A stretch of 64,000 bases of DNA, from contig NZ_JANBBF010000009.1 of assembly GCF_024648885.1 (NCBI RefSeq), positions 682,001 through 746,000 on the forward strand, given 5' to 3'. Numbering within the stretch: position 1 is the first letter of the stretch; each line of letters opens with the position of its first letter. Of this stretch, positions 33,652 through 51,654 are shown piece after piece. The position numbers were made by a program, and so were the translations under genes. This DNA comes from Prauserella salsuginis. GTDB taxonomy: Bacteria; Actinomycetota; Actinomycetes; Mycobacteriales; Pseudonocardiaceae. The notes below the pieces were generated by a model. The model worked only from the letters and a program-made list of their open reading frames with translations. It searched no databases and was not told the origin of the DNA.

Positions 33652-34515
33652 TCAGTCCCGGCCGGGTGGCGTCAGCAGCGAGCGCATGGCCACGACGTCC
33701 CGGTCGCCGTAGCCGTGCACCACGGTGCTCAGCAACTGCGCCAGGGTCTGCGCGGACACGGGGGTGGGAATCCCGAGCCTCCCCGCCGCGTCCACCGCGA
33801 GTCGGAGGTCCTTCGCCGCGAGTGCCGTGCTGAACCGGGCCGTGTCGTCGCCCGCGATCATCCACGGGAGGCGGACCTGCGATTGGAACGAGTAGGCGCC
33901 GGTGTCATCGAGCGCCGAGGCGAACAGTTCCGGGTCGATCCCGGCCTTCTCCGCGAGCGTGAAACCCTCGCTCAGCACGGCGACGTTCGTCATCCCGATC
34001 ATGTTCGAGATGAGTTTGAACACGGCCGCGGCCGACGGTGAACCGAAGTCGTACGTCCGCTCGCCCATCCGGTCGAACACCGGGGCGAGGGTGGTGATCG
34101 CCGCGCCGGAACCGCCCGCGAACAGTGGGATGGCGCCTTGCTCCGCAGCGGCCGGGGTCTTTCCCAGGGCGCAGTGGACGAACGCGTGACCGTGTTCGGC
34201 GAGCATGGTCTCCAGTTGGTCGGCCGTGGCGGGGTCGATGGTCGACACGTCGACAGCGATCGCGGTCCCGGACAGGTGCGGTGCCACCTCCCGCCACACC
34301 TCCGTGACGACCTCCGGCGTGGGAAGGCTGGTGAACACGACGTCGGCGTCCTTCGCCGCTGCCGCGGCGCTCTCGGCGGCTTCGGCACCGACTGCGGTAC
34401 AGCGCTCCACTGCGGACGGCGAGGTGTCGGCGACCCGGACGTCGTACCCGCCGGTGGCGAGGCGGCGGGCCACGGCGCCGCCCATGTTGCCTGCGCCGAT
34501 GAATGCGATTCTCAT
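33652..34515 (-). CDS. 3-hydroxyisobutyrate-dehydrogenase-family NAD(P) oxidoreductase, candidate sulfolactaldehyde reductase/DHPS dehydrogenase
   Basis: This is a beta-hydroxyacid dehydrogenase of 287 residues. Rossmann motif FIGAGNMGGAVARRLA at the N terminus, catalytic Lys in FKLISNMIGMTN. The usual substrate loop (VSGG) is replaced by ALGKTPAAAEQG, which recalls the VGRTSANAITG loop of E. coli YihU, the sulfolactaldehyde reductase. In the sulfonate context it could interconvert 2,3-dihydroxypropane-1-sulfonate and sulfolactaldehyde. Tartronate-semialdehyde reductase is the other family option. AAAGGAG lies 8 bases before the ATG. It is last of a three-gene operon behind a GntR-type palindrome. 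Confidence 0.78.
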   Translation of the reverse strand: MRIAFIGAGNMGGAVARRLATGGYDVRVADTSPSAVERCTAVGAEAAESAAAAAKDADVVFTSLPTPEVVTEVWREVAPHLSGTAIAVDVSTIDPATADQLETMLAEHGHAFVHCALGKTPAAAEQGAIPLFAGGSGAAITTLAPVFDRMGERTYDFGSPSAAAVFKLISNMIGMTNVAVLSEGFTLAEKAGIDPELFASALDDTGAYSFQSQVRLPWMIAGDDTARFSTALAAKDLRLAVDAAGRLGIPTPVSAQTLAQLLSTVVHGYGDRDVVAMRSLLTPPGRD

Positions 34516-34568
34516 TCGAGCATCTCCTTTGTGGTCCCGCGTGGGGATCGGGTGTGCGCGTACGGCCG

Positions 34569-36025
34569 TCACACGGCTGGATGTCGGTCGGGTGCCGCTG
34601 CAGCGAGGTCGGCCGCTTCCTCGGCATCGACGTCCACGCGGGTGGGTTCCCATCTGATCGCCAGCAGGACGAGGAGGCCGAGCAGCGGGGCCGCTGCGAC
34701 GACGTAGAACACGCCGGTTCCCAGGTTCGCGCTGAGGATGGGGAAGAAGAACAGCGAGACCATGGATCCGATGCGCAGCATCGCCTGGCCGAAACCGCTG
34801 CCGACGCCGCGAAGGGACGTCGGATAGCTCAGGGTTGCGATGGTCATGCCCTGAGCGCCGGGGCCGTAGGAGTGGAAGAACACGAACACCCCGAGCATCG
34901 CTCCGACGAGGATCAGCATCGCGCCTTCTGCGTCGCCGACCAAACCCAGGCCGATGAGCATCGCGAAGCAGACGGCGAAGCCGCCGGCCGCGAGCTTCCA
35001 GGAGCCGAGCTTGTTGCTCAACCGCACACCGAGCAGGCCGCCGAGGACGCCGAACACGAGGTTGAAGATCAGCGGGCCCACGATGGAGGTGAGTCTGCCC
35101 TGGTGCAGGAGCGCCGCGATGATCACCGGCAACGCGAACCCGACGGCGTAGTACTGCACCGATTGCAGCGCGCTCACCGACGCGGCCAGAATCGTACGTG
35201 CTCGGTAGCGCGGGCTGAACAGGCGTGCGAACTCGCGCAGTCCGGACGACGGCGGCCCTGTCGCGGCGGGTTCCTGTGCCGAGTCGTCGACGGTGACGGT
35301 GAGTCCGTACGACGACTGAAGAATCTCGGCGGCTCGGTGTAGATCACCCTGTCGAGCGGCCCATGCGGGCGATTCGTTCATGTACCGATGCCGGATGAGC
35401 ATCACGATGAGAGCAGGAACAGCGCCGAAGCCCACGGCCCACCGCCAGAGGTCGGCGTGGCCCGATTCCGGTATCAGGAAGTAGAAGGGCACCAGCACCA
35501 GGAAGCTGCAGCCGGTGGCGAAATACCACATCGGCTGCCACAGCGACACCTTTCCGCCGCGGCCGCGGAGCGCGTTGAACTCGGCGATGAATGCCAGCGC
35601 GACGGGGAAGTCGATACCTATCCCGATGCCGAGGACGAATCGCGCTCCGGTGAGTAGCTCGAAGGTGGGTGCGACCGCGCAGGCCAGGGCGGCGACGACG
35701 AAGAAGACCATGTCGGCCATGAACATCTTGTAGCGCCCGATGCGGTCGACGAGGTATCCGCCGACCAGGGCGCCGAGGAGTGCACCGACCATGATGGAGG
35801 CCGATACGATGCCTTCTTGGATCGAGCTGAGCTCGAAGGTGACCGCGATGTCCTTGAGGCCGAAGGCGATCGCCGAGAAGTCGTAGGCGTCGATGAAGAT
35901 CCACCGAGGGCGATGATGGTGATCGCCGTCGATTTACCGCCTTTGGCCCGTCCGGAATTGATGAGCTCGTTGACGTCCGCCGCCGATGAGATGACAGGGG
36001 GCGGGTCGGAGTGTGGGGTCGGCAT
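34569..36025 (-). pseudogene. MFS transporter gene with a one-base frameshift near its 5' end
   Basis: Two frames join to one 12-helix MFS protein of about 485 residues. The first starts at the ATG 36025 (MPTPHSDPPPVISSAADVNE ... AITIIALGG) behind AAGGA. The second continues IFIDAYDFSAIAFGLKDIAV and runs to 34569 through VDRIGRYKMFMADM, the family's loop 2-3 signature. They meet at about 35900-35904, where one base is missing (GGTGGATC where GGTGGGATC would keep frame). Everything else is intact, so this is either a recent inactivating mutation or a sequence error. It sits between the aldehyde dehydrogenase and the reductase and was probably the island's substrate importer. Confidence 0.8.
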
Positions 36026-36063
36026 GATGAGACGTCCTTGTCCATGGCCGTTCGGTACTCGGA

Positions 36064-37485
36064 TCAGAGACCGATCGCGACGTACCTGGTCTCTTCGAAC
36101 TCTTCGATGCCTGCGGCTGCGCCTTCGCGGCCGAGGCCGGATTGTTTGGTCCCGCCCATCGGGGCGAACGCAACACTGGGAAGCGGATTGTTGACACCGA
36201 CGATGCCGTTGTCCAACTGCTCCGACCAGCGCCATGCGCGTGCCTGATCGCGGGTGTACACATACGCGGCCAGGCCCATCTCGGTGCCGTTGGCCGCGGC
36301 GAGTGCTTCCTCCTCGGTGTGGAATGGGAACACTCCTGCTACGGGGCCGAACACCTCCTCGGTCGCCAGCCGGACGTGACCGGGGACATCGGCCAACAGG
36401 GCGGGCCGGGCGAAATTCGGGCCCGGTACCTCGGTGTCACGGGTCAGCTTGTGTGCGCCGGCGGCGACGGCCTCCTGGACGATCGCCTCGACCTCGCGCA
36501 CCCGGTCGTGATCGATGCACGGACCGAGGTCGGGGGTGGGCTCGGCGAGTCCGTCGCCGATCGACATCGCATCCATGGCCGCTGCCAGCCGCTTGGTGAA
36601 CTGCTGATAGACCGCTGCGTGCACCAGGAAGCGGTTGGCCGCGATGCAGGATTGTCCGGTGTTGCGGAACTTCGCGAGCATGGCGCCCTCGACTGCGGCG
36701 TCGATGTCGGCGTCGTCGAACACGACGAAGGGCGCATTGCCGCCGAGTTCGAGCAGCGGCCGCACGATCCGACCGGCGGCGGCGGTCAAGATGCGCCTGC
36801 CCACTTCGGTCGATCCGGTGAAACTGACGACCCGCACCGCCGGATGGCCCAGGTACCCTGCGGTGATCTCGGCTGCGGGGCCGTGGACGAGGTTGAGCAC
36901 GCCCGGCGGCAGACCGGCATCGTGGAGGCAGCGCACGAGTTCGGTCGCCGCCAGGGGTGCCTTCTCCGACACCCGCGCCACCACGGTGCATCCCGCTGCG
37001 AGCGCCGGGGCCAGCTTGCGAGCCTGAATGGAGCACGGGAAGTTCCACGGGGTCAGGCTCGCGACGACGCCCGCGGGTCTGCGCATGCTGAGGTGCCTGC
37101 GGTCCGCTGCCTCGTGGGTATGCACCGTACCGGCAGGCCGGCGTGCCTCTTCGGCGAACCAGCGCAGGTATTCGGCCGAGAAGGCGATCTCGCCGATTCC
37201 CTCGGGAAGGCGTTTTCCCGCCTCCCTGGCCAGCAACGTGCCGAGCTCCGTCGAGCGTTCGCGGAGCAGGTCTGCGGCCCGCAGGAGGATATCGGCGCGC
37301 TGTCGTGGTGGTGTCGCGGCCCAGCCGGGGAACGCGTCGGCCGCGGCGTCGGCCGCCGCAGTGGCCTCCGCGCCGCCTCCACAGGCGACGGTTCCGATCA
37401 CGGTGTCATCGACCGGATTCCGTACGTCCCGGACCGATTCCGTGTCGAACCACTCGCCGTTCACGAGCATGGTCCCTTGCCCCAT
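36064..37485 (-). CDS. NAD(P)-dependent aldehyde dehydrogenase, candidate sulfolactaldehyde dehydrogenase
   Basis: This is an ALDH-superfamily enzyme of 473 residues, closest in type to succinate-semialdehyde dehydrogenase (GabD). TPWNFPCSIQARKLAPAL and SFTGSTEVGRRI are cofactor motifs, Glu in LELGGNAP is the general base, and Cys in NTGQSCIAANRF is the nucleophile. GabD-like enzymes oxidise sulfolactaldehyde to sulfolactate in the sulfo-Entner-Doudoroff pathway, and this gene lies in an operon whose regulon contains sulfolactate lyase, so that reaction is proposed. GAGGAG lies 6 bases before the ATG; an operator palindrome is 24 bases upstream. Confidence 0.85.
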   Translation of the reverse strand: MGQGTMLVNGEWFDTESVRDVRNPVDDTVIGTVACGGGAEATAAADAAADAFPGWAATPPRQRADILLRAADLLRERSTELGTLLAREAGKRLPEGIGEIAFSAEYLRWFAEEARRPAGTVHTHEAADRRHLSMRRPAGVVASLTPWNFPCSIQARKLAPALAAGCTVVARVSEKAPLAATELVRCLHDAGLPPGVLNLVHGPAAEITAGYLGHPAVRVVSFTGSTEVGRRILTAAAGRIVRPLLELGGNAPFVVFDDADIDAAVEGAMLAKFRNTGQSCIAANRFLVHAAVYQQFTKRLAAAMDAMSIGDGLAEPTPDLGPCIDHDRVREVEAIVQEAVAAGAHKLTRDTEVPGPNFARPALLADVPGHVRLATEEVFGPVAGVFPFHTEEEALAAANGTEMGLAAYVYTRDQARAWRWSEQLDNGIVGVNNPLPSVAFAPMGGTKQSGLGREGAAAGIEEFEETRYVAIGL

Positions 37486-37508
37486 CAACGACTCCTCACG
37501 TTTTGGCG

Positions 37509-37523
37509 AGAGGTCTTACCTCT
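37509..37523. promoter_or_regulatory. GntR-type palindrome 1 (aldehyde dehydrogenase operon)
   Basis: AGAGGTCTTACCTCT is a perfect 6-3-6 inverted repeat 24 bases before the aldehyde dehydrogenase start. It has the GGT-N3-ACC core of FadR-subfamily operators. Near-identical sites precede suyA, the slcC-like gene, the DASS/TauE pair and the lyase operon. Confidence 0.8.
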
Positions 37524-37582: not shown

Positions 37583-38536
37583 TCAGCCGCGGTCGCGTTC
37601 GGACTGCGTACGGCGCACCGATGTTGTACGGGGCCCGGCGCCGGCGCGCGAAGCCAGTGCGAGCAACTCGGCCGCGGCACCGGACGGTGCTGCGCCCGTG
37701 TGCCAGACGGCGCGCAGTGTCCGGTGCAGGTCGACTCCCGAGGTGGCCACTTCCCGCAGATTCCCCGCCGCGAGATCGGATGCGACGACGAGTTCGCTGA
37801 GCAGTGCAGGGCCCGCTCCAGTGGCGACCGAACTGCGTACCGCGGTGGTGGAGCCCAGTTCCAACAGCGGTTCCACAGGGGTGAGGCCTGTCGCGAGCAG
37901 GGCCTGTTCGACGGTGTCACGGGTACCCGACCCGCTCTCCCTGCTGATCAACGGGGTTGCGGCTAGTTCCGCTGCGTCGACGGGCGTGCGCCTGCGCGCC
38001 CAGCGGTGCCCCGGGGCGACGACCAGGACCAGCCTGTCCCTGGCGACGATCTGGGAACGCAGTCTCCGGAGCCGTCGGGGGGATTCGATGAAGCCGAGGT
38101 CGATCTCGCCGTTCCGGACCAGCTCGCACACCCGTGTGGAGTTGAGCACCTGCAGTCCCACGTGAAGATCGGGAACCTGTCTGCGCAGCTCACCGATCCA
38201 CGTGGGCAGCAGGTGCTCGGCCACCGTCAGACTCGCCGCCAGTGACAGTTGGGCGGTGCGTTCCCTGCGCAGTGCGTTGACGCCTTCGACGAGCAGGTTG
38301 ACGTTCTCGATCACCCGCTCCGCCCAGCTGCAGATCAGCCGCCCGTCCGGCGTCAGCGTCGAACCGGTGCGGGACCGGTCGAGCAGCCGTACGCCGAGTC
38401 GGCGCTCCAGCGCGGAAATGCGTTTGCTCGCGGCGGGCTGGGTGGTTCCGACCTGCGCGGCGGCGGTGGTGAGGCTGCGGTGCTCACCCACGAGCACGAG
38501 CAGTTGCAGGGATTCGATGTCCGGCAGTTCGGTCAT
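37583..38536 (-). CDS. LysR family regulator, YeiE/CysL-like
   Basis: This 317-residue LTTR has an N-terminal winged helix (VGEHRSLTTAAAQVGTTQPA then ASKRISALERRLGVRLLDRS) and a periplasmic-protein-like effector domain. LISRESGSGTRDTVEQAL (about 200-217) is the anion-contact segment typical of CysB/CysL/YeiE relatives, which respond to sulfur anions. It is divergent from a YeiH-type exporter gene, the same pairing as yeiE-yeiH in enterobacteria, where the regulator is linked to sulfite tolerance. A sulfite-sensing role is therefore likely but inferred. Confidence 0.85.
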   Translation of the reverse strand: MTELPDIESLQLLVLVGEHRSLTTAAAQVGTTQPAASKRISALERRLGVRLLDRSRTGSTLTPDGRLICSWAERVIENVNLLVEGVNALRRERTAQLSLAASLTVAEHLLPTWIGELRRQVPDLHVGLQVLNSTRVCELVRNGEIDLGFIESPRRLRRLRSQIVARDRLVLVVAPGHRWARRRTPVDAAELAATPLISRESGSGTRDTVEQALLATGLTPVEPLLELGSTTAVRSSVATGAGPALLSELVVASDLAAGNLREVATSGVDLHRTLRAVWHTGAAPSGAAAELLALASRAGAGPRTTSVRRTQSERDRG

Positions 38537-38605
38537 TCCCAGAGGTTATGACGTGCGAACGAGCTGGTGGTACCGCCGTCCGAGCCCCGAAACGACGATG
38601 AAGTG

Positions 38606-39628
38606 GTGACAAAGCAAGAGTCGATCGTGGACGGGTCCGCGCGTTGGCGTGCACTCGTACCCGGTGTCGCGGTGGCGACGGCGGGAACGGCCGTGGCGTT
38701 CGGGATGTCGCTTCTGTGGCCGGTGCTGAGCGCCCTCACCGTTGCGGTGGTCCTCGGGGTGGCCGTCGGCCGCTGGATTCCGGAGCGGGCGCGGGAGGGG
38801 CTCGCGTGGGCCACCAAACGATTCCTGCGAGTGGGAGTTGTGCTGCTCGGCCTGCAGCTCGGGCTCGGCGAGGTGTTGGAACTGGGGCCCGGGGTGGTCG
38901 CCGCCGTCGTGGTGACGGTGCTCGTGGCGTTCTTCGGCACGCTGGGTATGGGGCGTCTCATCGGAGTGTCGCCGGGCCTTCGACTGTTGGTGGCCACGGG
39001 GTTCTCGATCTGCGGAGCCTCGGCCATCGCGGCGATGGACAGCGTGACCGACAGCGACAAGGAGGATGTCGCAACCGGTGTGACTCTGGTGACCTTGTAC
39101 GGCAGCGGGGCGATCGCCGTGGTTCCGCTGCTGGGCCAGTGGCTCGGCATGGTGCCCGAGCAACTCGGCGCCTGGGCGGGAGTGTCGATCCACGAGGTGG
39201 CGCAGGTCGTGGCCGCGGCATCACCGGCGGGTGCGGCGGCCGTGGCCGTGGCCGTGGTCGTGAAACTCACCCGCGTTGTGCTGCTGGCCCCCATGGTGGC
39301 AGGAGTAAGCATGGCGAATCGTCGCGGCAACGGCCCCGCGGGCGCTGCGACGACCGGGAAACGTCCGCCGCTGATTCCGCTCTTCGTCGTCGCGTTCCTG
39401 GTGATGATGCTGGTCCGGAGCACGGGCGCCGTGCCATCGGTGCTGCTTTCGGTGTCCGATGTGGTCGGTACATTGCTGTTCGCCGCCGCGTTGTTCGGCC
39501 TCGGTACGGGAGTGAGCCTGGGTTCCCTGCTCCGGACAGGCCGGCGGGGGCTCGCGCTCGGGGCGCTGTCCACGCTGCTGGTGGCCGTCGTCGGGTACAC
39601 CGCGTTGGCGGCGGCCGGGGCGGTCTGA
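38606..39628 (+). CDS. YeiH-family putative sulfite/sulfate exporter
   Basis: This membrane protein of about 340 residues has roughly ten hydrophobic helices. GFSICGASAIAAMDSVTDSD (about 136) and SIHEVAQVVAAAS (about 195) are the signatures of the YeiH (PSE) family. It is divergent from a YeiE/CysL-like LysR gene and next to suyAB, which release sulfite, so sulfite export is the likely role. Start choice is open: GTG at 38606 leaves room for a LysR promoter, while a GTG at 38567 is only 30 bases from the LysR start. Confidence 0.83.
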   Translation: MTKQESIVDGSARWRALVPGVAVATAGTAVAFGMSLLWPVLSALTVAVVLGVAVGRWIPERAREGLAWATKRFLRVGVVLLGLQLGLGEVLELGPGVVAAVVVTVLVAFFGTLGMGRLIGVSPGLRLLVATGFSICGASAIAAMDSVTDSDKEDVATGVTLVTLYGSGAIAVVPLLGQWLGMVPEQLGAWAGVSIHEVAQVVAAASPAGAAAVAVAVVVKLTRVVLLAPMVAGVSMANRRGNGPAGAATTGKRPPLIPLFVVAFLVMMLVRSTGAVPSVLLSVSDVVGTLLFAAALFGLGTGVSLGSLLRTGRRGLALGALSTLLVAVVGYTALAAAGAV

Positions 39629-39700: not shown

Positions 39701-40861
39701 TTATGCGCTGCGGTAGAGCTTGGTGAGCGTGAACTCGCGGTGGTTCAGTGCCTCGGATGCGGTCACCCGGCCGTTGATCGTCCGTTCGACCAGGTCGATC
39801 AGCGCATCTCCGGCCTGCTCCACGGTCGATTCCTGAGTCAGCACGTCGGAGCAGTCGACGTCGATATGATCGGACATCGCCGACGTCGTCTTCGGGTTCG
39901 CGCTGATCTTGACCACGGGTTGGACCGGATTGCCGATGACATTGCCCTGTCCCGTGGGGAAGAGGTTGACGACCCCGCGCCCGGCTGCCATGAGCGTGAC
40001 GCACTCGGCTGCGGCCGATGAGGTGTCCATGAAGTGCAGACCGGGCCCGGTCGGTGCTTCGGCCGGGGCGAGTGCACCCATGATCGGCACGGATCCCGTC
40101 TTCACGATGTTGCCCATGGCCTTCTCTTCGATGGTCGACAGCCCGCCGGCGATGTTGCCCTGCGTCGGCTGGGAGCCGAGCAGATTCGCCCCGGTCTGTT
40201 CGATCATCTCGACGTAGTCGTCGTAGAAACCCTGGAACCGCTTGCGGACCTCGTCGCTCACACAGCGCTCGGCGATGAGGTGCTCCCCACCGGTCAGCTC
40301 ACTGGTCTCACCGAAGATCATGGTGCCGCCCGACTCGACCCACCGGTCGACGAGGTGAGCGGTGACACGACAGGATCCGAGGCCGGTCGTGGTGTCGGAC
40401 TCGCCGTCCTTCATGGACAGTACGATGTCGGACCGATCAACCGGTTCGCGCGTGATCTCGCTGGCGTCCTGGAGGAACTTCTTGGCGTACCGCGATGCGC
40501 TCTCGATCACGCGCAGGTCGCCTCGTCCCTCGATGGCGATGCGATGCACGGGTTTGCCGGTCTTGGCGATGCCGTCTGCGACGACGTCCGTCCAGTTCGG
40601 CTCGATCCCGATGACGATGACCGCGGCGACGTTCGGATTGGCGCCGACGCCGATGAGGGTGCGGAACGTGAGGTCCAGATCGTCGCCGAACTGGAGTCGT
40701 CCGAATGCGTGCGGGAGTGCGAGGGTGCCGGGCACCAGCGACGCGATGCCCTCGGCCGCGGAGTTGGACAGGTCGTCCACCGGGAGGATTGCGACATGAT
40801 TGCGGGTGCCGACCGAACCGTCCGGCCGTCGGTACCCGGTCAGGCGACGCTGCTGAGCCAC
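39701..40861 (-). CDS. suyB: (2R)-3-sulfolactate sulfo-lyase, large subunit SuyB
   Basis: This is the catalytic subunit of the UxaA/altronate-dehydratase superfamily enzyme that splits sulfolactate into pyruvate and sulfite. Its 386 residues agree with known SuyB. TRNHVAILPVDDLSNSAAEG at the N terminus, FGETSELTGGEHL, SQPTQGNIAGGLSTIEEKA and FPTGQGNVIGNPVQPVVKIS match the SuyB pattern I remember from Paracoccus, and the C terminus ends ALNHREFTLTKLYRSA. It starts at a GTG behind AGGAG and overlaps suyA by 22 bases. In altronate and galactarate dehydratases the two parts are fused; the split form favours SuyAB. Confidence 0.87.
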   Translation of the reverse strand: MAQQRRLTGYRRPDGSVGTRNHVAILPVDDLSNSAAEGIASLVPGTLALPHAFGRLQFGDDLDLTFRTLIGVGANPNVAAVIVIGIEPNWTDVVADGIAKTGKPVHRIAIEGRGDLRVIESASRYAKKFLQDASEITREPVDRSDIVLSMKDGESDTTTGLGSCRVTAHLVDRWVESGGTMIFGETSELTGGEHLIAERCVSDEVRKRFQGFYDDYVEMIEQTGANLLGSQPTQGNIAGGLSTIEEKAMGNIVKTGSVPIMGALAPAEAPTGPGLHFMDTSSAAAECVTLMAAGRGVVNLFPTGQGNVIGNPVQPVVKISANPKTTSAMSDHIDVDCSDVLTQESTVEQAGDALIDLVERTINGRVTASEALNHREFTLTKLYRSA

Positions 40862-41159: not shown

Positions 41160-41174
41160 AGTGGTCTTACCTCT
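41160..41174. promoter_or_regulatory. GntR-type palindrome 2 (suyAB)
   Basis: AGTGGTCTTACCTCT differs by one base from the perfect site before the aldehyde dehydrogenase gene. It is 18 bases upstream of the suyA start codon. Confidence 0.78.
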
Positions 41175-44205: not shown

Positions 44206-45858
44206 TCAGCCGAAGACCATGCCCACCATGAGCGGCAGCAACAACACCACCAGGACGATTCCGGCGATGTCGAAGGTGAAACCCGAGCGGACCATCTTGG
44301 TGATGGGCACCGCGCCCGACCCGTAGACGATGGCGTTCTGCGGCGTCGACACCGGAAGCATGAAGCCGAACGAGGCCGCGAACGTCGCGGCCAGCGCGGG
44401 AACGAACGGATCGACGCCAGCAGCCGTCGCGACCGGGATGAGGATCGGCACCACCACCGACGCCGCAGCGGTGTTGGAGGTCGTTTCGGAGATGACGACT
44501 GCGAGGACGACGGCGAACACGAGGATGGCGATGTTGCTGCCCAGCCCCAGCATCGCTGCCGCTCCGGTGCCGATCGACTCGGCGAGCTGCGTCTCGGCCA
44601 GCAGCGTGCCGAAAATGATGCCGCAGCCGAACAGCACGATCGTTCCCCAGTCGATGCGACTGGCTTCCGACCAGGTGAGCGTGAACTCGCGGTTGGACCA
44701 TTTGGTCGGCAGTACGAACAGCAGCGCCGCCCCGAGTACCGCGACCACGCCTTCGTCGAGGTGGGAGCTCACCGTCCGGTAGGCGGCCGAGTCGTCGCCG
44801 GCGACCAAGGCCACGAGACCCGGCACCATCCAGAGTGTGACCGTCACCCCGAAGGCGATCAGGGTGTTGCGTTCCGCCCACGACATGCGCCCTAGTTTCG
44901 CCCGCTCAGCGGTCACGTAGTCCTCGATGCCGGACAGCCTCTTGATTTCCGGACGGTTGAGCAGCAGGAGGACACCGGCGAGCAGCAGGAACATCACGAT
45001 GCAGACCGGTAGTGCGGTGAGGAACCAGCTGAGGAACGAGATCTGCTGCCCGGTGGCCTGCTCGATGAACTCGCGACCGATGAGGTTCGGCGCGGATCCG
45101 ATCGGGGTGAGCAGTCCACCCGCTCCGGAGCCGTAGGCGAGCATCAGCATCAGTGCCACACCGATGCGCAGGCGCAGCGGGTCGAACGGGGTGCCCTCGG
45201 GCAGATCCTTGCGGACGAGTTCCGCGATGACGGCGAGGATGCCGACGGCGGTTGGCAGCAGCATCGCCACCGTAGCCGTATTGGAGATCGCGGCGGACAG
45301 TACGGCGGTGATGGCGCCGAACGCGCACACCACGCGCGCCGACGTCTTGCCCACCCCGGGCAGTGACAACACGAGGAAGGCGAACCGTCTCGCGAGGCCG
45401 TGGCGAAGCATCGCCTGCGCCAGGATGAAGGCGCCGATGAACACGAAGATCGTCGACGAACCGAACGGTGCCAGTGCTTCGTCGGCCGGTACGACACCCA
45501 ACAGGACGATGGCGGATACGCCGATGAGTCCGCCGATAGGGATGGGTACGGGTTCGCAGACCCACAGCACGACCACTCCGAGCAGGATCGCGGCCAGTTT
45601 GTGCTGCGGACCGTCGAGCGATGTGGGCAGGAACAGGAACACCACGGTCACCAGCGGCGCCAGCACGAGCCCGATGGTGCGGCGGGCGCGTTCGAAGCGT
45701 TCTTCGGTGGGGGACAGGGTTTGTTCGCCGAGACTCCGGTATGTGGTTCCCGACAGCAGGACGGAGGTGACATCACTTCCGGAGCTGCTCCGGGAGTCGC
45801 CGGACACTCCGTCGGGCCCGGCGTTGTCGTTGACCTCAGTAGCCATGCGCCGCACCAT
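44206..45858 (-). CDS. DASS (SLC13) family anion:sodium symporter
   Basis: This is a 550-residue membrane protein with about 12 hydrophobic helices. SNTATVAMLLPTAVGILAVI and the mirrored SETTSNTAAASVVVPI are the two SNT motifs of the DASS family, which carry dicarboxylates, sulfate and related anions. In this regulon it is the likely importer of sulfolactate, DHPS or a dicarboxylate. The N-terminal 60 residues are hydrophilic. The start is either the ATG at 45858 or the ATG at 45846; neither has a clear ribosome binding site. It is divergent from the TauE/SafE gene with an operator between. Confidence 0.87.
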   Translation of the reverse strand: MVRRMATEVNDNAGPDGVSGDSRSSSGSDVTSVLLSGTTYRSLGEQTLSPTEERFERARRTIGLVLAPLVTVVFLFLPTSLDGPQHKLAAILLGVVVLWVCEPVPIPIGGLIGVSAIVLLGVVPADEALAPFGSSTIFVFIGAFILAQAMLRHGLARRFAFLVLSLPGVGKTSARVVCAFGAITAVLSAAISNTATVAMLLPTAVGILAVIAELVRKDLPEGTPFDPLRLRIGVALMLMLAYGSGAGGLLTPIGSAPNLIGREFIEQATGQQISFLSWFLTALPVCIVMFLLLAGVLLLLNRPEIKRLSGIEDYVTAERAKLGRMSWAERNTLIAFGVTVTLWMVPGLVALVAGDDSAAYRTVSSHLDEGVVAVLGAALLFVLPTKWSNREFTLTWSEASRIDWGTIVLFGCGIIFGTLLAETQLAESIGTGAAAMLGLGSNIAILVFAVVLAVVISETTSNTAAASVVVPILIPVATAAGVDPFVPALAATFAASFGFMLPVSTPQNAIVYGSGAVPITKMVRSGFTFDIAGIVLVVLLLPLMVGMVFG

Positions 45859-45895: not shown

Positions 45896-45910
45896 AGAGG
45901 TCTTACCTCT
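45896..45910. promoter_or_regulatory. GntR-type palindrome 5 (between the DASS and TauE/SafE genes)
   Basis: AGAGGTCTTACCTCT, identical over all 15 bases to site 1, lies 38 bases before the DASS gene and 63 bases before the divergent TauE/SafE gene. One site could control both transporters. Confidence 0.82.
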
Positions 45911-45972: not shown

Positions 45973-46698
45973 ATGTCGACGGTGATCGTCGGCGGTGCCG
46001 GGATCGTCGTCCTTGCGGCCGTGCTCGGTGGCATGACCGGATTCGGCTACAACCTCATCGCGACTCCGCTGATACTGCTGCTCGGCTTCGATCCCCCGAC
46101 CGTCGTGGCGGTGAATCTCGCGATCGCGCTCGCGACACGGGTCTCGGTCGTGGCGCGTCTGTGGCGTTCGATCCGGTGGCGTCGTGCGATCCCACTCGCC
46201 GTCGCGAGCTTCCCCGGGCTTGTCGTCGGAGCGCTGCTCGGCGGCCTGATCGATCCGTCCGGGATTCGGCTCGTCACCGGGGTGGTGGTACTCGTTGTCG
46301 CACCGGTGATGGTGTTCCGGACGCCGAGTCCTGGTGAACGGTCGCGGAGTCGCTATGCACTCGCGGGCTTCGCCGGGGGAGCGCTGGGTACGACGACATC
46401 GTTGAACGGCGTGCCGGTGGCGCTGACTCTCGCGGCCGATACTGACGGTCAGCGTAGTTTCATCGCCGATCTGGCGGTGTACTTCGTGTCGAGCAATGTG
46501 GTCGGTCTCGTTGTGCTCGGCGTTCGGGACGGGGCGTTCCTCGGCGATGTCGGGTTGCTGGCGTGGTGGTTGCCCGGTGCTCTGGTCGCGAACTGGATCG
46601 GCACGGCGTGGGGTGGTCGTGCCCGGCCCGACGTGTTCCGTATCGCAACGTTCGTGCTCGTGATGGCGGCCGGTGTGGCGACGCTGCTGTCGGTGTGA
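45973..46698 (+). CDS. TauE/SafE family sulfite exporter (SuyZ-like)
   Basis: This is a 241-residue membrane protein with about seven or eight helices. GGMTGFGYNLIATPLILLLG (about 17) and LPGALVANWIGTAWGGR near the end are the paired repeats of the TauE/SafE (former DUF81) family. In Paracoccus a member, SuyZ, follows suyAB and is thought to export sulfite. GGAAGGGG lies 6 bases before the ATG. It shares the palindrome at 45896 with the DASS gene. With the YeiH-type protein, the island has two sulfite export families. Confidence 0.85.
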   Translation: MSTVIVGGAGIVVLAAVLGGMTGFGYNLIATPLILLLGFDPPTVVAVNLAIALATRVSVVARLWRSIRWRRAIPLAVASFPGLVVGALLGGLIDPSGIRLVTGVVVLVVAPVMVFRTPSPGERSRSRYALAGFAGGALGTTTSLNGVPVALTLAADTDGQRSFIADLAVYFVSSNVVGLVVLGVRDGAFLGDVGLLAWWLPGALVANWIGTAWGGRARPDVFRIATFVLVMAAGVATLLSV

Positions 46699-46762: not shown

Positions 46763-46777
46763 AGAGGTCAAACCACA
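46763..46777. promoter_or_regulatory. GntR-type palindrome 6 (lyase-SDH operon)
   Basis: AGAGGTCAAACCACA matches site 3 in 12 of the first 13 bases, with a decayed right arm. It is 30 bases before the lyase gene, tying the lyase/succinate-dehydrogenase-like operon to the sulfonate regulon. Confidence 0.68.
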
Positions 46778-46806: not shown

Positions 46807-48318
46807 ATGCCGGCCGAGCGGATCTCTCGCGAACGACTGACCGAACCACCGGGTGAGATCTACACGACCACCGTGCTCGAGCCGAGCTTCCGGTTCATGC
46901 TCGACGAGTACTTCGACCCATTGCTCGAGACGAACCGGGCCTGGGCCGTCATGTTGGGCGACACCGGGATCGTCGCGCCCGACAACGTCCGGCGCCTGCT
47001 GGGGGCGCTGGACCGGATGTCGGAGGAGGGTGCGGCGGCCTTCGCGGAGTTCAACCCGGATTTCGAGTACTTCTACTCCCACCTCGAACACCGGCTGGCC
47101 GAACTGGCCGGTGCGGCGGCCGCGGGCGAGATCAACCTGGGCAGAACGCGGCCCGAGCCGCTCACCCGGATGGCGCTTCGGCCACGGATCATCCGGATTC
47201 ACGGGGAATTGCTGTCGTTGGTCGAGGTACTGCTCGATCTTGCAGCCCGCGAGGCGGGCACGGTGATGCCCCAGTGGACGCACATGCAACCGGCGCAGCC
47301 GTCGACCTTCGGGCACTACCTGCTCGGTATCGCCGGCGCGCTGCTGCGGGATGTGGACCGGCTCGCGGCCGCCTACCGGACAACCAACGCCTGCACGCTC
47401 GGCTGCGGCGCTCTCGCCGGCACGTCCTACCCCGTCGACCGGGGCCTCGTGGCAGCCTTGCTGGGCTTCGACGAGGTGCGGGAGAACACGATCGATTGCG
47501 TCGCCTCCGGTGACCACGGGCTCGAAACGGCGGCCGCCGTCGCGAACATCGGTGTCACCCTCAGCAGGCTCTGCGAAGACCTCTACCTGTGGCACACCGA
47601 CGAATTCGGGCTGGTGGAGATCGGCGACTCGTTCGCAGGCTCCAGCAGCATGATGCCCCAGAAGAAGAATGCCTACCCGTTCGAGTACGTGCGCGCCCGC
47701 GGCGCACGTGCGGTCGGCGAGATGACCTCGGCCTTCGGTGCGCTGCACAACACGAACTTCGGCGACATCAAGGACGTCGAGGAGGAGATGGTGCCGCCGG
47801 TGTTCCGCGGGTGCGACGAGATGGTGACGTCGCTGCGTCTGCTCGGCGGGACGCTGGGCACGCTGGTGGTCCACCGAGAACGTTGCGCTGCCCGTGCCGC
47901 GTCGGGTTTCTCGACGGCCACCGAGCTCGCCGCCGTGCTGCATCGGAAATCGGACCTGGATTACCGGTCGGCCCACCGTGTGGTCGGGCACCTGGTGCTG
48001 CTGGCCACGACCCGAGGACTGTCGCCAGGTGAGGTCGGCGCCGCACTGCTCGACGAAGCGGCACGTGAGGTCCTCGGACGGGATGCGGGTCTGGCCGATT
48101 CCCAGGTGCGCGACGCTCTCGACCCGTCCGGGTTCGTCGCGGCGCACCAGGTGCAGGGCGGGCCGGCACCCGAACCGATGCGGCACGCGCTCGCCGGTGC
48201 ACGGCAGCAGCTGGCCGATCGGCGGGAGTGGCTGGACCGCGCACGGAGCGGACTCGACGAGGCGTCGGACCGTCTCACCGCCCGCGTGCGCGACTACCTG
48301 GGCGACTCCCATGGCTGA
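46807..48318 (+). CDS. Argininosuccinate lyase/EDDS lyase-like C-N lyase (fumarase/aspartase superfamily)
   Basis: This 503-residue enzyme has the superfamily signature GSSSMMPQKKNAYPFEY (about 278-294), which carries the catalytic Ser loop, together with THMQPAQPSTFGHYLLG (about 158) and SGDHGLETAAAVANIGV (about 234). These match argininosuccinate lyase topology, but the N terminus lacks the usual GRF start and the length and active-site loop resemble EDDS lyase, which cleaves N-succinyl amines to fumarate and an amine. Release of fumarate is the safe prediction. TTGGAGG lies 5 bases before the ATG. It overlaps the following iron-sulfur gene by 8 bases, so its product is probably handled by the SDH/FRD-like complex coded next. 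Confidence 0.8.
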   Translation: MPAERISRERLTEPPGEIYTTTVLEPSFRFMLDEYFDPLLETNRAWAVMLGDTGIVAPDNVRRLLGALDRMSEEGAAAFAEFNPDFEYFYSHLEHRLAELAGAAAAGEINLGRTRPEPLTRMALRPRIIRIHGELLSLVEVLLDLAAREAGTVMPQWTHMQPAQPSTFGHYLLGIAGALLRDVDRLAAAYRTTNACTLGCGALAGTSYPVDRGLVAALLGFDEVRENTIDCVASGDHGLETAAAVANIGVTLSRLCEDLYLWHTDEFGLVEIGDSFAGSSSMMPQKKNAYPFEYVRARGARAVGEMTSAFGALHNTNFGDIKDVEEEMVPPVFRGCDEMVTSLRLLGGTLGTLVVHRERCAARAASGFSTATELAAVLHRKSDLDYRSAHRVVGHLVLLATTRGLSPGEVGAALLDEAAREVLGRDAGLADSQVRDALDPSGFVAAHQVQGGPAPEPMRHALAGARQQLADRREWLDRARSGLDEASDRLTARVRDYLGDSHG

Positions 48319-49048
48319 TACCGCCGATGCGGACACGAACGCCGGCGGGCTGGTACGGGTGACCGTGACGCGCAGCGTCGAGGGCACGCGGTCGGAGTTC
48401 CTCGTCGCGCGTATCCGTCCGATGACGGTTCTCGACGCGCTGCTCGCCGTACAACGGGAGCACGATCCCGCGCTGGCCTTCCGCTTCTCGTGCCGGGTCG
48501 GCATGTGCGGGACGTGCACGGTGCGGGTCGACGGACGCTCGGCGCTCGCGTGTCAGACGGAGATCCCGGCGGACACCGATCGGATCCGGGTCGACCCACT
48601 CGCGGGCCTGCCCGTGGTGCGGGATCTGATCGTCGACACCGGCCCCTTCTGGCAGGCGTGGGCATCGGTGCGGCCGTATCTCGTGCCCGGCGAGGACGCC
48701 GACGTCGGCATGGACGCCGAGCCGGCCGTGATCGCGCCGGATTCGGCCGAACGCCGCGCCATCGATCCTGCTCTGGACTGCATCGGGTGCGCGGCGTGCT
48801 TCTCGAGCTGTGGCATCGCGAGTGCGCATCGGGATTTCGTCGGCCCCGCGGCGCTGAACCGCGCGATGGTGCTGGTCGCCGACAGCCGGGACAGTGCCAC
48901 GGCCGAACGCCTGGAGGTCGTCGGGGCGGAATCCGGTGTCGACCGGTGTCACTACATCTACGGATGCACCGCTGCGTGTCCCAAGGGGCTCGATCCCGCG
49001 CGTGCGATCCGCCGACTGCGTGGCAGGAGGTTCCGTGGCGACCGGTGA
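48311..49048 (+). CDS. Succinate dehydrogenase/fumarate reductase-like iron-sulfur subunit
   Basis: This is a 245-residue SdhB/FrdB-type protein with all three clusters. The [2Fe-2S] ligands are Cys61, Cys66, Cys69 and Cys81 (CRVGMCGTC ... ALAC), the [4Fe-4S] motif is CIGCAACFSSC (157-167), and the [3Fe-4S] ligands are in CHYIYGCTAACPKG (213-223). It passes electrons from the flavoprotein to the membrane anchors. It overlaps the lyase gene by 8 bases and the flavoprotein gene by 14, so the operon is tightly coupled. Gene order B-A-C-D with a lyase in front is unusual for a housekeeping sdh. Confidence 0.9.
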   Translation: MADTADADTNAGGLVRVTVTRSVEGTRSEFLVARIRPMTVLDALLAVQREHDPALAFRFSCRVGMCGTCTVRVDGRSALACQTEIPADTDRIRVDPLAGLPVVRDLIVDTGPFWQAWASVRPYLVPGEDADVGMDAEPAVIAPDSAERRAIDPALDCIGCAACFSSCGIASAHRDFVGPAALNRAMVLVADSRDSATAERLEVVGAESGVDRCHYIYGCTAACPKGLDPARAIRRLRGRRFRGDR

Positions 49049-50780
49049 GGTATGGCGGGAACCGGAGGTGCTGGACACCGACGTCGCAGTGGTCGGCAGC
49101 GGGGGAGCCGGTCTGATGTGCGTGCTCCACGCCTTGACGGCTCGTCCGGAGTTGGACGTGACCGTGGTGAGCAAAGGCGCGGTGGGACGTTCCGGGTGCA
49201 CCCGCATGGTGCAGGGCGGCTACAACGCGGTCCTCGACCCCGACGACTCGGTGGACCTGCATCTCCGCGACACGGTCCAGGGCGGGAAGTTCCTCAACGA
49301 CCAGTCGTTGGCCAGAACGCTGGTCGACGACGCGCCTCGGGTGATCAACGAGCTCGAGACCAGGGTCGGGTGCTTCTTCGATCGCAGGCCCGACGGCCGC
49401 ATCCATCAGAAGGCCTTCGCCGGGCAGGCGTTCGATCGGACGGTGCATCGCGGTGACCTGACCGGCATCGAGATCATGGGACGGCTTCGCGATCAGATGT
49501 TCCGTCTCGGTCCTCGCGAGCTGGAAGACGTTCGTGCCCTCGACCTCGTCCACGATGCCGAGGGTGAACTGGCCGGGTTGACGGCGTTGAACGTGCGCAC
49601 CGGCGATCCGTTGGTCTTGCGGGCTCGGGTGGTGGTCGTGGCGACGGGCGGTTCGGCGACGATGTACCGCGTCGCGGCGCCGGCTAGAGAGAAGACCGGC
49701 GACGGCGTGGCGATGTGTTGGCGAGCCGGCCTGCCGATGCGGGACATGGAGATGCTGCAGTTCCATCCGACCGGGCTGCTGGCCGGTAAGTCCCGGATGA
49801 CCGGCGCGGTGCTGGAGGAGGGGCTGCGCGGAGCAGGGGCGCACCTGTACAACGCGGCCGGCGAGCGGTACATGGCCCGGTACGACGCGGAGCGGATGGA
49901 ACGATCCACACGGGACGTCGTGGCGAGGGCCGGATACCTCGAGATCATGGCGGGACGCGGTACGGACGAGGGTGGCGTCCTGATCGACATCTCGCACCTG
50001 GGCAGCGGCGAGGTCGAGCGGTGTTTTCCGGGCATGGTCGCGAGAACCCGGCAGATCGAACAGGACCTGGCGATCGGTCCCGTCCAGGTCTCGCCCACGG
50101 CACACTTCCACATGGGCGGTGTGCTCATCGACGCCGACGGCCGGACCGACGTCGACGGACTCCTCGTGGCGGGCGAGGACGCCGGCGGTACGCACGGCGC
50201 CAACCGGCTCGGTGGCAACGGCGTCGCCGAGTCGACCGTGTTCGGTGCACGCGCCGGGGACACTGCCGCCCGGCTGGCCCGGCAGCGGCGGTTACGCACA
50301 CCGGAGCGGACCGAGGTGAACGCGTCGCTGGCGCGAGCGTACGCGCCGCTGACCCGATCACTCGGTCCGTGGCCGTTCGATCTGACCCGGCGGCTGAAGG
50401 AACTCATGTGGCGCTCGGTCGGCGTCGTACGCGACGGTGCCTCGCTCGAGCACGCGGGCAAGGAACTCGACGCGCTGGCCGACGAGATCGAGCACATCGC
50501 CGTTCCCGGTCCGCCACAGGTCAACTTCGCCTGGCAGGAGGCGCTCGACCTGGCCAACCAGGTGACCGTCGCCAGGGCCATGGCTCACGCGGCGGCCTGG
50601 CGTACCGAGACCCGCGGGGCGCACGCACGGTCGGACTTCCCCGATACGGACGCTCGTCCCCGGTATCTGGTGCAGCGGGCGGCCGGCGACGGCCCGACCG
50701 GTGCGATCGAGTCGGAGGTGCGCGACGTGGAGTTCAGCCACCTCCGGCCGGCCGATCTCGATGGGAGGCCGGGCTCGTGA
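49035..50780 (+). CDS. Succinate dehydrogenase/fumarate reductase-like flavoprotein subunit, covalent-FAD His absent
   Basis: This is a 581-residue flavoprotein. FAD motif VVGSGGAGLMCVL (about 20), substrate residues in MLQFHPTG (about 240), LEEGLRGAGAHL (Arg, about 260), HFHMGGVLID (about 357) and THGANRLGGNGVAES (about 385), so dicarboxylate binding and hydride transfer are kept. At the place of the His that binds FAD covalently in SdhA/FrdA (RSHT) it reads RSGCT, with Cys55; FAD may thus be non-covalent. It starts at a GTG behind AGGAGG. Function could be succinate oxidation, fumarate reduction or oxidation of an analogue. Confidence 0.88.
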   Translation: MATGEVWREPEVLDTDVAVVGSGGAGLMCVLHALTARPELDVTVVSKGAVGRSGCTRMVQGGYNAVLDPDDSVDLHLRDTVQGGKFLNDQSLARTLVDDAPRVINELETRVGCFFDRRPDGRIHQKAFAGQAFDRTVHRGDLTGIEIMGRLRDQMFRLGPRELEDVRALDLVHDAEGELAGLTALNVRTGDPLVLRARVVVVATGGSATMYRVAAPAREKTGDGVAMCWRAGLPMRDMEMLQFHPTGLLAGKSRMTGAVLEEGLRGAGAHLYNAAGERYMARYDAERMERSTRDVVARAGYLEIMAGRGTDEGGVLIDISHLGSGEVERCFPGMVARTRQIEQDLAIGPVQVSPTAHFHMGGVLIDADGRTDVDGLLVAGEDAGGTHGANRLGGNGVAESTVFGARAGDTAARLARQRRLRTPERTEVNASLARAYAPLTRSLGPWPFDLTRRLKELMWRSVGVVRDGASLEHAGKELDALADEIEHIAVPGPPQVNFAWQEALDLANQVTVARAMAHAAAWRTETRGAHARSDFPDTDARPRYLVQRAAGDGPTGAIESEVRDVEFSHLRPADLDGRPGS

Positions 50781-51280
50781 GCGTGGCGCAGTTCGTGTTC
50801 TTCTGTGGATTCGCGCTGGTGGCCGTCGCGATCGTGGCGTTCAGCGTCGTGGTCGTGCGCAGCGCTCGCCGGGACGACGGCGGGCCGTTCGTGTCGCGCT
50901 CGCTGGTCGCTCGGCTCGCCCGGCCGGGACGCGACCGGGCCGAGCTGCAACGGTGGGCGTTCTACCTCCACCGCGTCAGCGGCCTGGGACTGTTCGCCTT
51001 CCTGTGCCTGCACGTCGGCGACGTCAGCCTGTACGTGATCTCGCGTGAGATCTACGACGAGGTACACCAGGTGTACGGCAGCGTGCCGATGCGCTTTGCC
51101 GAGGTCGGGTTGCTGTTCGGCTTGCTGTTCCACACGGCCAACGGGTTGCGGCTGGTCGCGGTCGACCTCGTCGATCTCGGGCTGACGGGCTCCACACGAG
51201 CGCTCTACGGCGTCCTCGGGGTGAGTGTGGTCGGCACGCTCGCGGGTGCCGTGTTCATTCTGGGACCGGTGATCGTATGA
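50777..51280 (+). CDS. SDH/FRD-like membrane anchor subunit (cytochrome b, SdhC-like)
   Basis: This 167-residue membrane protein has an N-terminal helix, a charged cytoplasmic stretch and then three helices. FYLHRVSGLGLFAFLCLHVG contains the HRxSG motif of SdhC (His65, Ser68) and His79, candidates for heme and quinone contacts; GLLFHTANGLRLVAVDL has a second likely heme His. It starts at a GTG overlapping the flavoprotein stop codon (GTGA) and is coupled to the next gene by ATGA. Confidence 0.82.
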   Translation: MSVAQFVFFCGFALVAVAIVAFSVVVVRSARRDDGGPFVSRSLVARLARPGRDRAELQRWAFYLHRVSGLGLFAFLCLHVGDVSLYVISREIYDEVHQVYGSVPMRFAEVGLLFGLLFHTANGLRLVAVDLVDLGLTGSTRALYGVLGVSVVGTLAGAVFILGPVIV

Positions 51281-51654
51281 CGGTGGCCGACATCAAGGGT
51301 GATGCGAACTCCGCACGCCGCAGGCGGGCGGCGTACGTCGCGCTGCGGTTGTCCGGTGTGCTGCTCGCCGTGCTGGTGCTGGGGCATTTCGTCGCCACCC
51401 ACGTCACCACGGACGTCGCGGACACCGACTCCCGCTTCATCGACCAGCGGTGGGCGACCGCACTGTGGCTGGTCTGGGACGGGGTGATGCTGGCGGCGAC
51501 ACTGGGCCACGCGGTGCTCGGCCTGTGGGCGGTGATCGCCGACTACACCGCGGGCAGACGCAGGCGAATATGGCGGGTGGTCCTGCTCTGCGGAGCGGGA
51601 GCCGTCCTCGTCGGCGGGATGACCTTGTTGTGGCTCGCGGCCACGGCATCCTGA
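51277..51654 (+). CDS. SDH/FRD-like second membrane anchor subunit (SdhD-like)
   Basis: This 125-residue protein has three hydrophobic helices: LRLSGVLLAVLVLGHFVATH (about 23-42), WLVWDGVMLAATLGHAVLG and VLLCGAGAVLVGGMTLLW. His37/His42 in the first and the His in the second helix are suitable heme ligands. The SG pair after the N-terminal Arg-rich stretch recalls SdhC/D anchors. It completes the four-subunit complex and ends the operon. Confidence 0.78.
   Translation: MTVADIKGDANSARRRRAAYVALRLSGVLLAVLVLGHFVATHVTTDVADTDSRFIDQRWATALWLVWDGVMLAATLGHAVLGLWAVIADYTAGRRRRIWRVVLLCGAGAVLVGGMTLLWLAATAS

Follow-up and report, generated by a model that had tools for sequence, protein, structure and literature searches.

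A candidate route from 3-sulfopropanoate to sulfolactate beside the sulfo-lyase genes of Prauserella salsuginis

The locus described here raises the question of why, in the actinobacterium Prauserella salsuginis, genes of sulfolactate catabolism stand together with a homologue of complex II (SdhBACD) and with a lyase of the argininosuccinate lyase (ASL) superfamily. It lies in a window of 64,000 nucleotides, corresponding to positions 682001-746000 of one contig (C2) of the 5.64 Mb genome, which comprises 15 contigs. The original prediction had described a complete island for the catabolism of dihydroxypropanesulfonate (DHPS) and sulfolactate; its gene set held, whereas the last third of the island, comprising the ASL-type lyase and SdhBACD (46816-51654), had been left uninterpreted.

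With moderate confidence, we propose that the island provides one exit and two entries, and that its mechanism would lead from 3-sulfopropanoate via sulfoacrylate and sulfolactate to pyruvate and sulfite. In one entry, a HIBADH-like protein and an aldehyde dehydrogenase (ALDH) would turn an alcohol sulfonate, either DHPS or 3-hydroxypropanesulfonate, into the corresponding acid by oxidation. In the other, 3-sulfopropanoate, which resembles succinate but carries a sulfonate group, would be taken up by a DASS symporter and desaturated to 3-sulfoacrylate by a dedicated SdhBACD in the membrane, with transfer of electrons to quinone, and the ASL-family enzyme would hydrate 3-sulfoacrylate, in the manner of a fumarase, to 3-sulfolactate. 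At the exit, SuyAB would split (R)-sulfolactate into pyruvate and sulfite, SlcC and ComC would interconvert the sulfolactate enantiomers via sulfopyruvate, and sulfite would be exported by TauE and perhaps by YeiH. The series succinate-fumarate-malate-oxaloacetate would map one to one on 3-sulfopropanoate-sulfoacrylate-sulfolactate-sulfopyruvate. Every substrate and direction in this scheme is a prediction, as is the regulator assigned to the operator.

Linkage of the lyase-Sdh unit with suyAB and a common operator

What was observed directly is the gene content, the conserved linkage, the common operator, the residue changes and, in other lineages, a class-I fumarase standing where the lyase would be. 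Regarding linkage, the island-type ASL was present in 7 of 346 genomes of the family, its own included. In all seven islands (the window and six others) SdhBACD followed the lyase and TauE preceded it, and SuyBA-SlcC-ComC were also found in six; the contig of the seventh begins at GntR. The order SuyBA/SlcC-ComC-GntR/DASS/TauE-ASL-SdhBACD recurred in the family relatives. In Tamaricihabitans halophyticus (NZ_SLXQ01000019.1; Pseudonocardiaceae, Actinomycetota) the unit is flanked, as judged by eye, by argH-/mpg-like genes on one side and a tyrS-like gene on the other, and not by xfp-ackA, and since it thus occupies two different chromosome places in the two lineages it has apparently moved whole. 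As the ASL-SdhBACD operon is the partner kept with suyAB in the lineage, it would constitute the second entry, from 3-sulfopropanoate via sulfoacrylate.

Similar units were found outside the family. Salinisphaera hydrothermalis carries SuyAB, transporter-like open reading frames (ORFs), SdhB, SdhA, the lyase and SlcC-like and ComC-like genes. Megaplasmids of the haloarchaea Natribaculum luteum and Haloarcula sp. GH36 carry IclR, SdhB, SdhA, lyase, TauE and the small and large UxaA subunits, with an additional Ldh in Haloarcula; no SdhCD was found among the genes annotated beside the SdhBA-lyase set of these units. In a genome from another family of the phylum (G686), lyase and SdhBACD stand with SlcC and ComC; the contig starts within SlcC, and no SuyAB and no TauE were found in the stretch. 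A lyase profile gave matches in 0 of 385 cases in Alphaproteobacteria and 1 of 369 in Gammaproteobacteria (Salinisphaera); within the own phylum it matched 3 of 396 (the own lyase, G686 and G396). As controls we used 78 other ASL loci (3-21 kb, mean 18 kb) from a scan of genome contigs in which two of the 80 loci retained were of the island type. TauE and UxaA were found in none of these controls, YeiH and class-I fumarase in one each and enzymes dependent on thiamine pyrophosphate (TPP) in 12; SdhA relatives occurred in two, scoring 239 and 148 bits vs. at least 800 for the clade described below.

Plasmids showed the same association. A tblastn search with SdhA against 72,556 plasmids returned 17 records at 46-71% identity, followed by values of 38.7% or less (best 40 of 491), and SuyB was found at 56.8-69.5% in 13 records, with the next at 38.7% (best 40 of 312 records). 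Six of the 13 SuyB-type records were among the 17 of the SdhA type, where 0.003 would be expected, two of the six being strains of one species. A second haloarchaeal cluster, on plasmid unnamed1 of Haloarcula sp. GH36 (L194:4631-8162), combines a putative sulfate exporter, a UxaA pair and Ldh; no Sdh-lyase set was annotated in that stretch.

In a palindrome listing, AGAGGTCTTACCTCT appeared both before the ALDH gene and between DASS and TauE. When the pattern AGAGGTCNNACCTCT was searched, the only four places of the genome with one mismatch or fewer all lay in island promoters (37509, 41160, 41287 and 45896), that is, once before ALDH-MFS-HIBADH, twice in the suyA/slcC region and once in the DASS/tauE-asl-sdh region. 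Shuffled windows contained 0.03 such sites each (30 shuffles, in a control preserving only local single-base composition). The additional site AGAGGTCAAACCACA, with two mismatches, is weak, 54 of the genome's 60 rows being of that quality; two-mismatch sites were rejected as evidence in this genome, with 60 rows in all vs. 159, all mismatch classes taken together, for the reversed control pattern.

Sites with up to two mismatches occurred at matching promoters in Tamaricihabitans and in four further relatives (G095, G116, G031 and G056). In Rhodococcus koreensis such sites lay before an SLC13 gene and in the gntR-suyA interval, and Rhodococcus jostii RHA1 had three, one of them, with two mismatches, just before sdhB; locus L115 showed an exact copy before its GntR. 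The same search gave no site in L127, L013 and L020, and one of the two-mismatch type, off these promoters, in L012 and L123. The island GntR is 58% identical to that of R. koreensis, and because the latter stands beside a like site, the operators probably belong to the FCD-type GntR, which would bind them; patterns based on GntR consensus sites had no match in the island promoters. Recurring gene order and one operator type in three promoter regions make the grouping more than a product of chance; the region looks like a single regulon, whose sulfonate nature we regard as very probable.

An altered SdhA and a class-I fumarase in the place of the lyase

The genome contains a second ASL, 37% identical to that of the island, at C5:527312, where it immediately follows an ORF that by eye resembles argG. 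There are also three other SdhA-family genes, 37-39% identical to the island SdhA, and E. coli NadB is the tree neighbour of one of them. The island ASL and SdhBACD are therefore extra genes and not the housekeeping copies, and, with the other ASL beside the argG-like ORF, the island lyase is not the arginine-pathway enzyme of the genome.

In the SdhA tree, 41 rows formed a clade on one side of a branch with 100/100 support. Position 254 of E. coli SdhA, a threonine that we take to bind the dicarboxylate, was Glu in 41 of 41 clade members, vs. Thr in seven and Ser in one of the eight outgroups. The residues H242, E255, R258, R286, H354 and R399 (E. coli numbering), presumably the functional residues of succinate dehydrogenase, were kept in all 41. 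The histidine at E. coli position 45, which we assume to attach flavin adenine dinucleotide (FAD) covalently, was present in none of the 41 vs. five of the eight outgroups. A short insertion with the motif [RK][ML]TG just before the Glu-254 position was common to the first 21 SdhAs aligned. A literature search on the residue change yielded nothing useful.

The lyase is altered as well. In 11 of 11 island-type rows TRPE replaced SRND, presumably the substrate-binding motif of ArgH, while the TH..Q.AQ-type and GSS.MPQKKN motifs were kept. Among 12 other rows SRND was found in eight (the own ArgH and seven more), those without it being XcbC1, G396, a Sedimentisphaerales protein and E. coli FumC. 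The island type formed its own group (100/99) in the lyase tree. Its closest solved relatives in a profile search were 6rx8 and 6g3d (305-306 bits), both of which we take to be EDDS lyase.

In 10 of the 10 bacterial plasmid loci read, the Sdh genes were accompanied by a class-I fumarase and not by the lyase (the R. jostii RHA1 and C. necator loci came without annotation, and their second fumarase subunit was read by eye). An SdhA profile matched in 18 of 240 cases in Alphaproteobacteria, 3 of 114 in Gammaproteobacteria and 1 of 119 in the own phylum, and fumarase alpha and beta subunits stood beside the clade SdhA in 20 of 20 new proteobacterial loci (the 21 proteobacterial matches minus Salinisphaera), compared with none of 10 control stretches from the same genomes (20 had been sought). 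Four of the 20 stretches were shortened to 4.6-14 kb by contig ends, and some species may be common to these and the plasmid loci. In the SdhA tree, R. jostii RHA1, which has the fumarase, grouped with actinobacterial loci of the lyase type, and Salinisphaera, which has the lyase, lay inside the proteobacterial fumarase group, so that hydratase type required two changes beyond the minimum, at these two places. Since the fumarase occupies the place of the lyase, the simplest reason would be that both hydrate the product of the clade SdhA, and it is from this replacement that we infer a hydratase function for the lyase. A cross-domain "sulfo-Krebs" module of actinobacteria, proteobacteria and haloarchaea, in which the complex II homologue desaturates 3-sulfopropanoate as part of the respiratory chain, ASL-superfamily or class-I fumarase hydratases, exchanged at least twice, convert sulfoacrylate to sulfolactate, and SuyAB or other exits are fed, seems to us slightly better than an even proposition.

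Other genes were noted beside the Sdh-fumarase sets. A TPP enzyme resembling acetolactate synthase or hydroxyacyl-CoA (coenzyme A) lyase adjoins the set in L129, L131, L138, L162, L165, L171 and L177; every model listed for it scored below cut-off, and a sulfopyruvate decarboxylase is one possible identity. L130, L132 and L135 each have a NIPSNAP-family gene next to YeiH-type and fumarase genes. In Pseudomonas sp. MPC6 (L132:15406-16896) a CoA-acylating methylmalonate-semialdehyde dehydrogenase directly follows the Sdh-fumarase genes, which suggests another sulfite-releasing branch. In strain NT-25 an annotated sulfolactaldehyde 3-reductase and gabD adjoin the set, a pair that would suit conversion of 3-hydroxypropanesulfonate to 3-sulfopropanoate, although their identities to the corresponding proteins of the window are only 34 and 44%, respectively. 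On pRHL1 of R. jostii RHA1 (L136:4571-7326) a relative of the ALDH (66-69%) lies in two pieces near the Sdh-fumarase set, separated by transposase-like ORFs (read by eye).

Exit, alcohol entry and rival explanations

SuyA and SuyB are adjacent, split UxaA-type subunits whose genes overlap by 22 bases. The SAF domain of SuyA lies barely above the Pfam cut-off (22.4 vs. 21) and was unlisted in a genome-wide SAF search at E 0.001. SuyB is 57% identical to the copy of Cupriavidus pinatubonensis HN-2, where hpsN, hpsO and the UxaA pair stand together; strain JMP134 of that species is named as a source of identified SuyAB in the passage concerned of PMC12890257. The galactarate dehydratase model gave 135 bits on SuyB vs. 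a cut-off of 731. The original prediction had called for a phylogeny against UxaA and GarD, and in this tree SuyB grouped with bacterial SuyBs, the E. coli UxaA and GarD lying apart behind a 100/99 branch, with inner forks weakly resolved. By group and tree, SuyB is of the sulfolactate sulfo-lyase type. The SlcC-like gene adjoins SuyAB and ComC in relatives, and the best of five NCBIfam models on the ComC-like gene was L-sulfolactate dehydrogenase (NF040650, 165.5 bits, below the cut-off of 500).

The alcohol entry was less constant. The HIBADH-like protein scored 144 bits with the HIBADH model and 139 bits with that of sulfolactaldehyde 3-reductase YihU (NF012005, cut-off 348), both below cut-off, and the ALDH reached 473 bits with TIGR01780 (cut-off 646) and 454 bits with PRK11241 (cut-off 828), two GabD models, 3jz4, a succinate-semialdehyde dehydrogenase, being its closest solved relative. 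The MFS gene is a single frame in G095, G116 and R. koreensis; in the window (34569-36045) its N-terminal part lies in another frame than the rest, broken near 35870, owing to a pseudogene or to a sequencing or assembly error. In R. koreensis, SuyAB is accompanied by relatives of the ALDH (71%), MFS (69%), HIBADH (67%), SlcC (49%) and ComC (56%), and because it keeps ALDH-MFS-HIBADH with SuyAB-SlcC-ComC, the alcohol-aldehyde-acid entry is a real cassette, whose substrate may be DHPS. The 16.3 kb around the Tamaricihabitans island yielded no relative of HIBADH, MFS, ALDH or LysR, and the 12 kb beside the island of the sister species G116 yielded no ALDH, so the entry is not an invariant part of the system. 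The predicted conversion of DHPS to sulfolactate kept the backing of the R. koreensis cassette and of an ALDH promoter with the common operator, although its genes do not invariably accompany suyAB. The "complete" DHPS route depends on two dehydrogenases whose substrates are indistinguishable from sequence.

Several observations weigh against the route from 3-sulfopropanoate. Linkage is incomplete, the ten lyase-type loci besides the window having TauE in nine, UxaA and ComC in eight each and SlcC in seven. TauE was near only nine of the 20 fumarase-type loci (one of the 10 controls) and SuyB near only three, each time with SlcC and ComC, for which reason some members of the SdhA clade may have another substrate or use other exits. 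Identity to SuyB is only about 35% for the UxaA pairs of the haloarchaea, which lie on a very long branch (6.96). A Glu in the carboxylate pocket would be odd for a substrate with a second anion, unless the [RK][ML]TG insertion pairs with it, and in E. coli Frd a missing FAD histidine is said to favour reduction over oxidation. The lyase passes the curated ArgH cut-off (322.5 vs. 279.5 bits). It misses that of XcbC (NF052535, 275 bits vs. 575; XcbC1 itself 742), its second-best NCBIfam match, and it is no closer to XcbC1 of pXAUT01 (30% identity) than ArgH is (32%). XcbC, presumably an enzyme of coenzyme M synthesis, was therefore rejected as a model for the lyase, and its chemistry, as we understand it, serves only as a precedent. 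A TRPE lyase also occurs in G396, in two equally scoring copies (538 bits) on one contig, and tblastn with the window proteins found no Sdh, TauE or Suy gene in these stretches; it perhaps represents a third function within the lyase group.

Part of this evidence would suit a unit acting on ordinary C4 compounds, in which the lyase releases fumarate from an N- or S-succinyl compound, Sdh reduces or oxidises the C4 acid and the link with suyAB is a regulatory convenience. Adduct cleavage is the chemistry of the ASL family, the solved relatives 6rx8 and 6g3d and the ArgH score point the same way, and 11 of the 20 fumarase-type stretches contain neither TauE nor SuyB. We nevertheless consider it unlikely, since the class-I fumarase found with this SdhA clade is in line with a fumarate-like product being hydrated rather than an adduct being cleaved, the Thr-to-Glu change is uniform, and the common operator and the linkage with suyAB-type genes are found in separate lineages. 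Were the ASL-SdhBACD genes an unrelated neighbour, the path from DHPS through sulfolactaldehyde and sulfolactate to pyruvate and sulfite would stand alone. This is favoured by R. koreensis, whose cassette lies with suyAB-slcC-comC while the annotation shows no Sdh set over 10 kb; yet in Tamaricihabitans it is ASL-SdhBACD that stays with suyAB while HIBADH, MFS and ALDH were not found, and the unit has the operator in common, which makes this quite improbable.

The two remaining explanations keep the sulfonate substrate. The set could run backwards as an electron sink, with loss of water from sulfolactate and reduction of the resulting sulfoacrylate to 3-sulfopropanoate, in agreement with the lack of the FAD histidine and with the best NCBIfam model of SdhA, the fumarate reductase TfrA (531 bits, below the cut-off of 718). 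The reductive path would then have to share its sulfolactate with SuyAB and the sulfite exporters of the same regulon; importers for anions, from several families, occur with the Sdh set, and its hosts include Paracoccus, Methylobacterium and Rhodococcus, which are aerobic, so that we judge this reversal very improbable, marginally more so than the preceding alternative. Hydration at the sulfonate-bearing carbon would give the bisulfite adduct of malonate semialdehyde and release sulfite without SuyAB. The dehydrogenase of MPC6 and the 17 of 20 fumarase-type stretches lacking SuyB would accord with it, but that enzyme could equally be a CoA-acylating sulfopropanal dehydrogenase, and suyAB, slcC and comC, which such a route does not need, belong to the same regulon in the window; it appears the least probable of all. 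Oxidation of 3-sulfopropanoate, followed by hydration to sulfolactate, remains our preferred reading.

Gene layout and known systems

The positions of the genes and operator sites are given in Table 1. All genes named in the original prediction were open frames at their positions with the expected domains (ORF and profile checks), and two exporter families (YeiH-type and TauE), LysR, GntR and DASS were confirmed in place by their domains. As regards the labels for DHPS and sulfolactate metabolism, the domains were present, whereas YihU-like, GabD-like and ComC-like denote resemblances well below curated cut-offs. Lyase, SdhB, SdhA, SdhC and SdhD form a tight operon with successive overlaps of 8, 14, 4 and 4 bases.

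Table 1. Genes and operator sites of the island, in window coordinates
Feature	Position	Strand	Basis and predicted role
HIBADH/YihU-like beta-hydroxyacid dehydrogenase	33652..34518	-	PF03446+PF14833; predicted alcohol-oxidising step of the ALDH-MFS-HIBADH cassette
MFS transporter	34569..35861	-	PF00083; N-terminal frame broken near 35870
GabD/SSADH (succinate-semialdehyde dehydrogenase)-like ALDH	36064..37482	-	Predicted sulfolactaldehyde or 3-sulfopropanal dehydrogenase
Operator AGAGGTCTTACCTCT	37509..37523		Upstream of ALDH-MFS-HIBADH; 0 mismatches
LysR regulator, YeiE/CbbR-like	37583..38536	-	PF00126+PF03466; YeiE 169 bits, cut-off 480
YeiH/PF03601 putative sulfate/sulfite exporter	38567..39628	+	PF03601 205 bits; TIGR00698 142 bits, cut-off 233
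SuyB, (R)-sulfolactate sulfo-lyase large subunit	39701..40861	-	PF20629+PF04295, 386 aa; assigned by group and tree
SuyA, small subunit	40840..41142	-	PF08666 22.4 bits, cut-off 21; 100 aa
Operator AGTGGTCTTACCTCT	41160..41174		suyA/slcC promoter region; 1 mismatch
Operator AGAGGTCAAACCTCA	41287..41301		suyA/slcC promoter region; 1 mismatch
SlcC-like 2-hydroxyacid dehydrogenase	41324..42307	+	PF02826+PF00389; predicted (S)-sulfolactate to sulfopyruvate
ComC-like Ldh_2 dehydrogenase	42301..43329	+	PF02615; predicted (R)-sulfolactate <-> sulfopyruvate
GntR/FCD regulator	43435..44169	+	PF00392+PF07729; probable owner of the operators
DASS (SLC13) anion symporter	44206..45858	-	TIGR00785 273 bits, cut-off 199
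Operator AGAGGTCTTACCTCT	45896..45910		Between DASS and TauE-ASL-Sdh; 0 mismatches
TauE/SafE sulfite exporter family	45973..46698	+	PF01925 109 bits, cut-off 32.6
Operator-like AGAGGTCAAACCACA, weak	46763..46777		Upstream of lyase; 2 mismatches
ASL-superfamily lyase, proposed sulfoacrylate hydratase	46816..48318	+	PF00206+PF14698; alternative start 46750
SdhB-like iron-sulfur subunit	48311..49048	+	TIGR00384 196 bits, cut-off 88
SdhA-like flavoprotein, proposed 3-sulfopropanoate dehydrogenase	49035..50780	+	PF00890+PF02910; Glu at SdhA-254, no FAD histidine
SdhC-like cytochrome b subunit	50777..51280	+	TIGR02970 61 bits, cut-off 52
SdhD-like membrane anchor	51277..51654	+	TIGR02968 29.5 bits, below cut-off 41.8; position and conservation in 6 relatives

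A phosphoketolase-acetate kinase pair (30143-33633) directly adjoins the island and is also its neighbour in the same-genus relatives G095 and G116. It was rejected as part of the system; being present in the same-genus pair and not found in the Tamaricihabitans stretch, it seems to belong to the chromosome site. Further out (27465-28700) lies a CaiB/BaiF protein whose best model was 2-methylfumaryl-CoA isomerase (395 bits vs. a cut-off of 725).

3-Sulfopropanoate is formed from homotaurine, and by Enterococcus gilvus from sulfoquinovose or DHPS, according to the pertinent passage of PMC11489063. Its degradation by Bilophila is called unclear in a section of a 2026 review (PMC12890257). According to an excerpt of PMC12421959, a "fumarate and tartrate" cluster that includes a homologue of TauE is raised during growth of Paracoccus wurundjeri on sulfofucose; compared by description only, this cluster looks like the type of L130. 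No such module is described in excerpts of PMC4334477 and PMC9169050, and our search of the open-licence literature found no published genes for 3-sulfopropanoate degradation. If the route proposed here is true, it would be the first gene set for dissimilation of this compound; candidate oxidation genes would make the question of its degradation testable, genes of one class now labelled "argH" and "sdhA" would receive a corrected annotation, and enzymes of central metabolism would be seen to have been retuned from carboxylate to sulfonate, with two unrelated hydratases for one job.

Compared with known systems, the lyase has its fold family, by profile, in common with argininosuccinate lyase, EDDS lyase and XcbC, and differs in TRPE for SRND and in its own 100/99 group. 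The complex has four subunits and the six conserved residues in common with succinate dehydrogenase and fumarate reductase, whereas, unlike in complex II, its SdhA has Glu for Thr254, a loop insertion, no FAD histidine and a separate 100/100 group. With the SuyAB-SlcC-ComC pathway of Chromohalobacter, Paracoccus and C. pinatubonensis the window has in common the split SuyA/SuyB, the paired 2-hydroxyacid and Ldh_2 dehydrogenases and a TauE-family exporter; in contrast to that pathway, its set is actinobacterial, stands under a common 15-bp operator and is joined to a complex II homologue and an ASL-family lyase. The intermediates proposed here (3-sulfopropanoate, sulfoacrylate and sulfolactate) are the same as those proposed for homotaurine in Roseovarius nubinhibens in the thesis of J. 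Mayer, as cited in PMC11489063; the account of that route in the passage concerned names no genes, whereas candidate genes and two hydratase types are put forward here.

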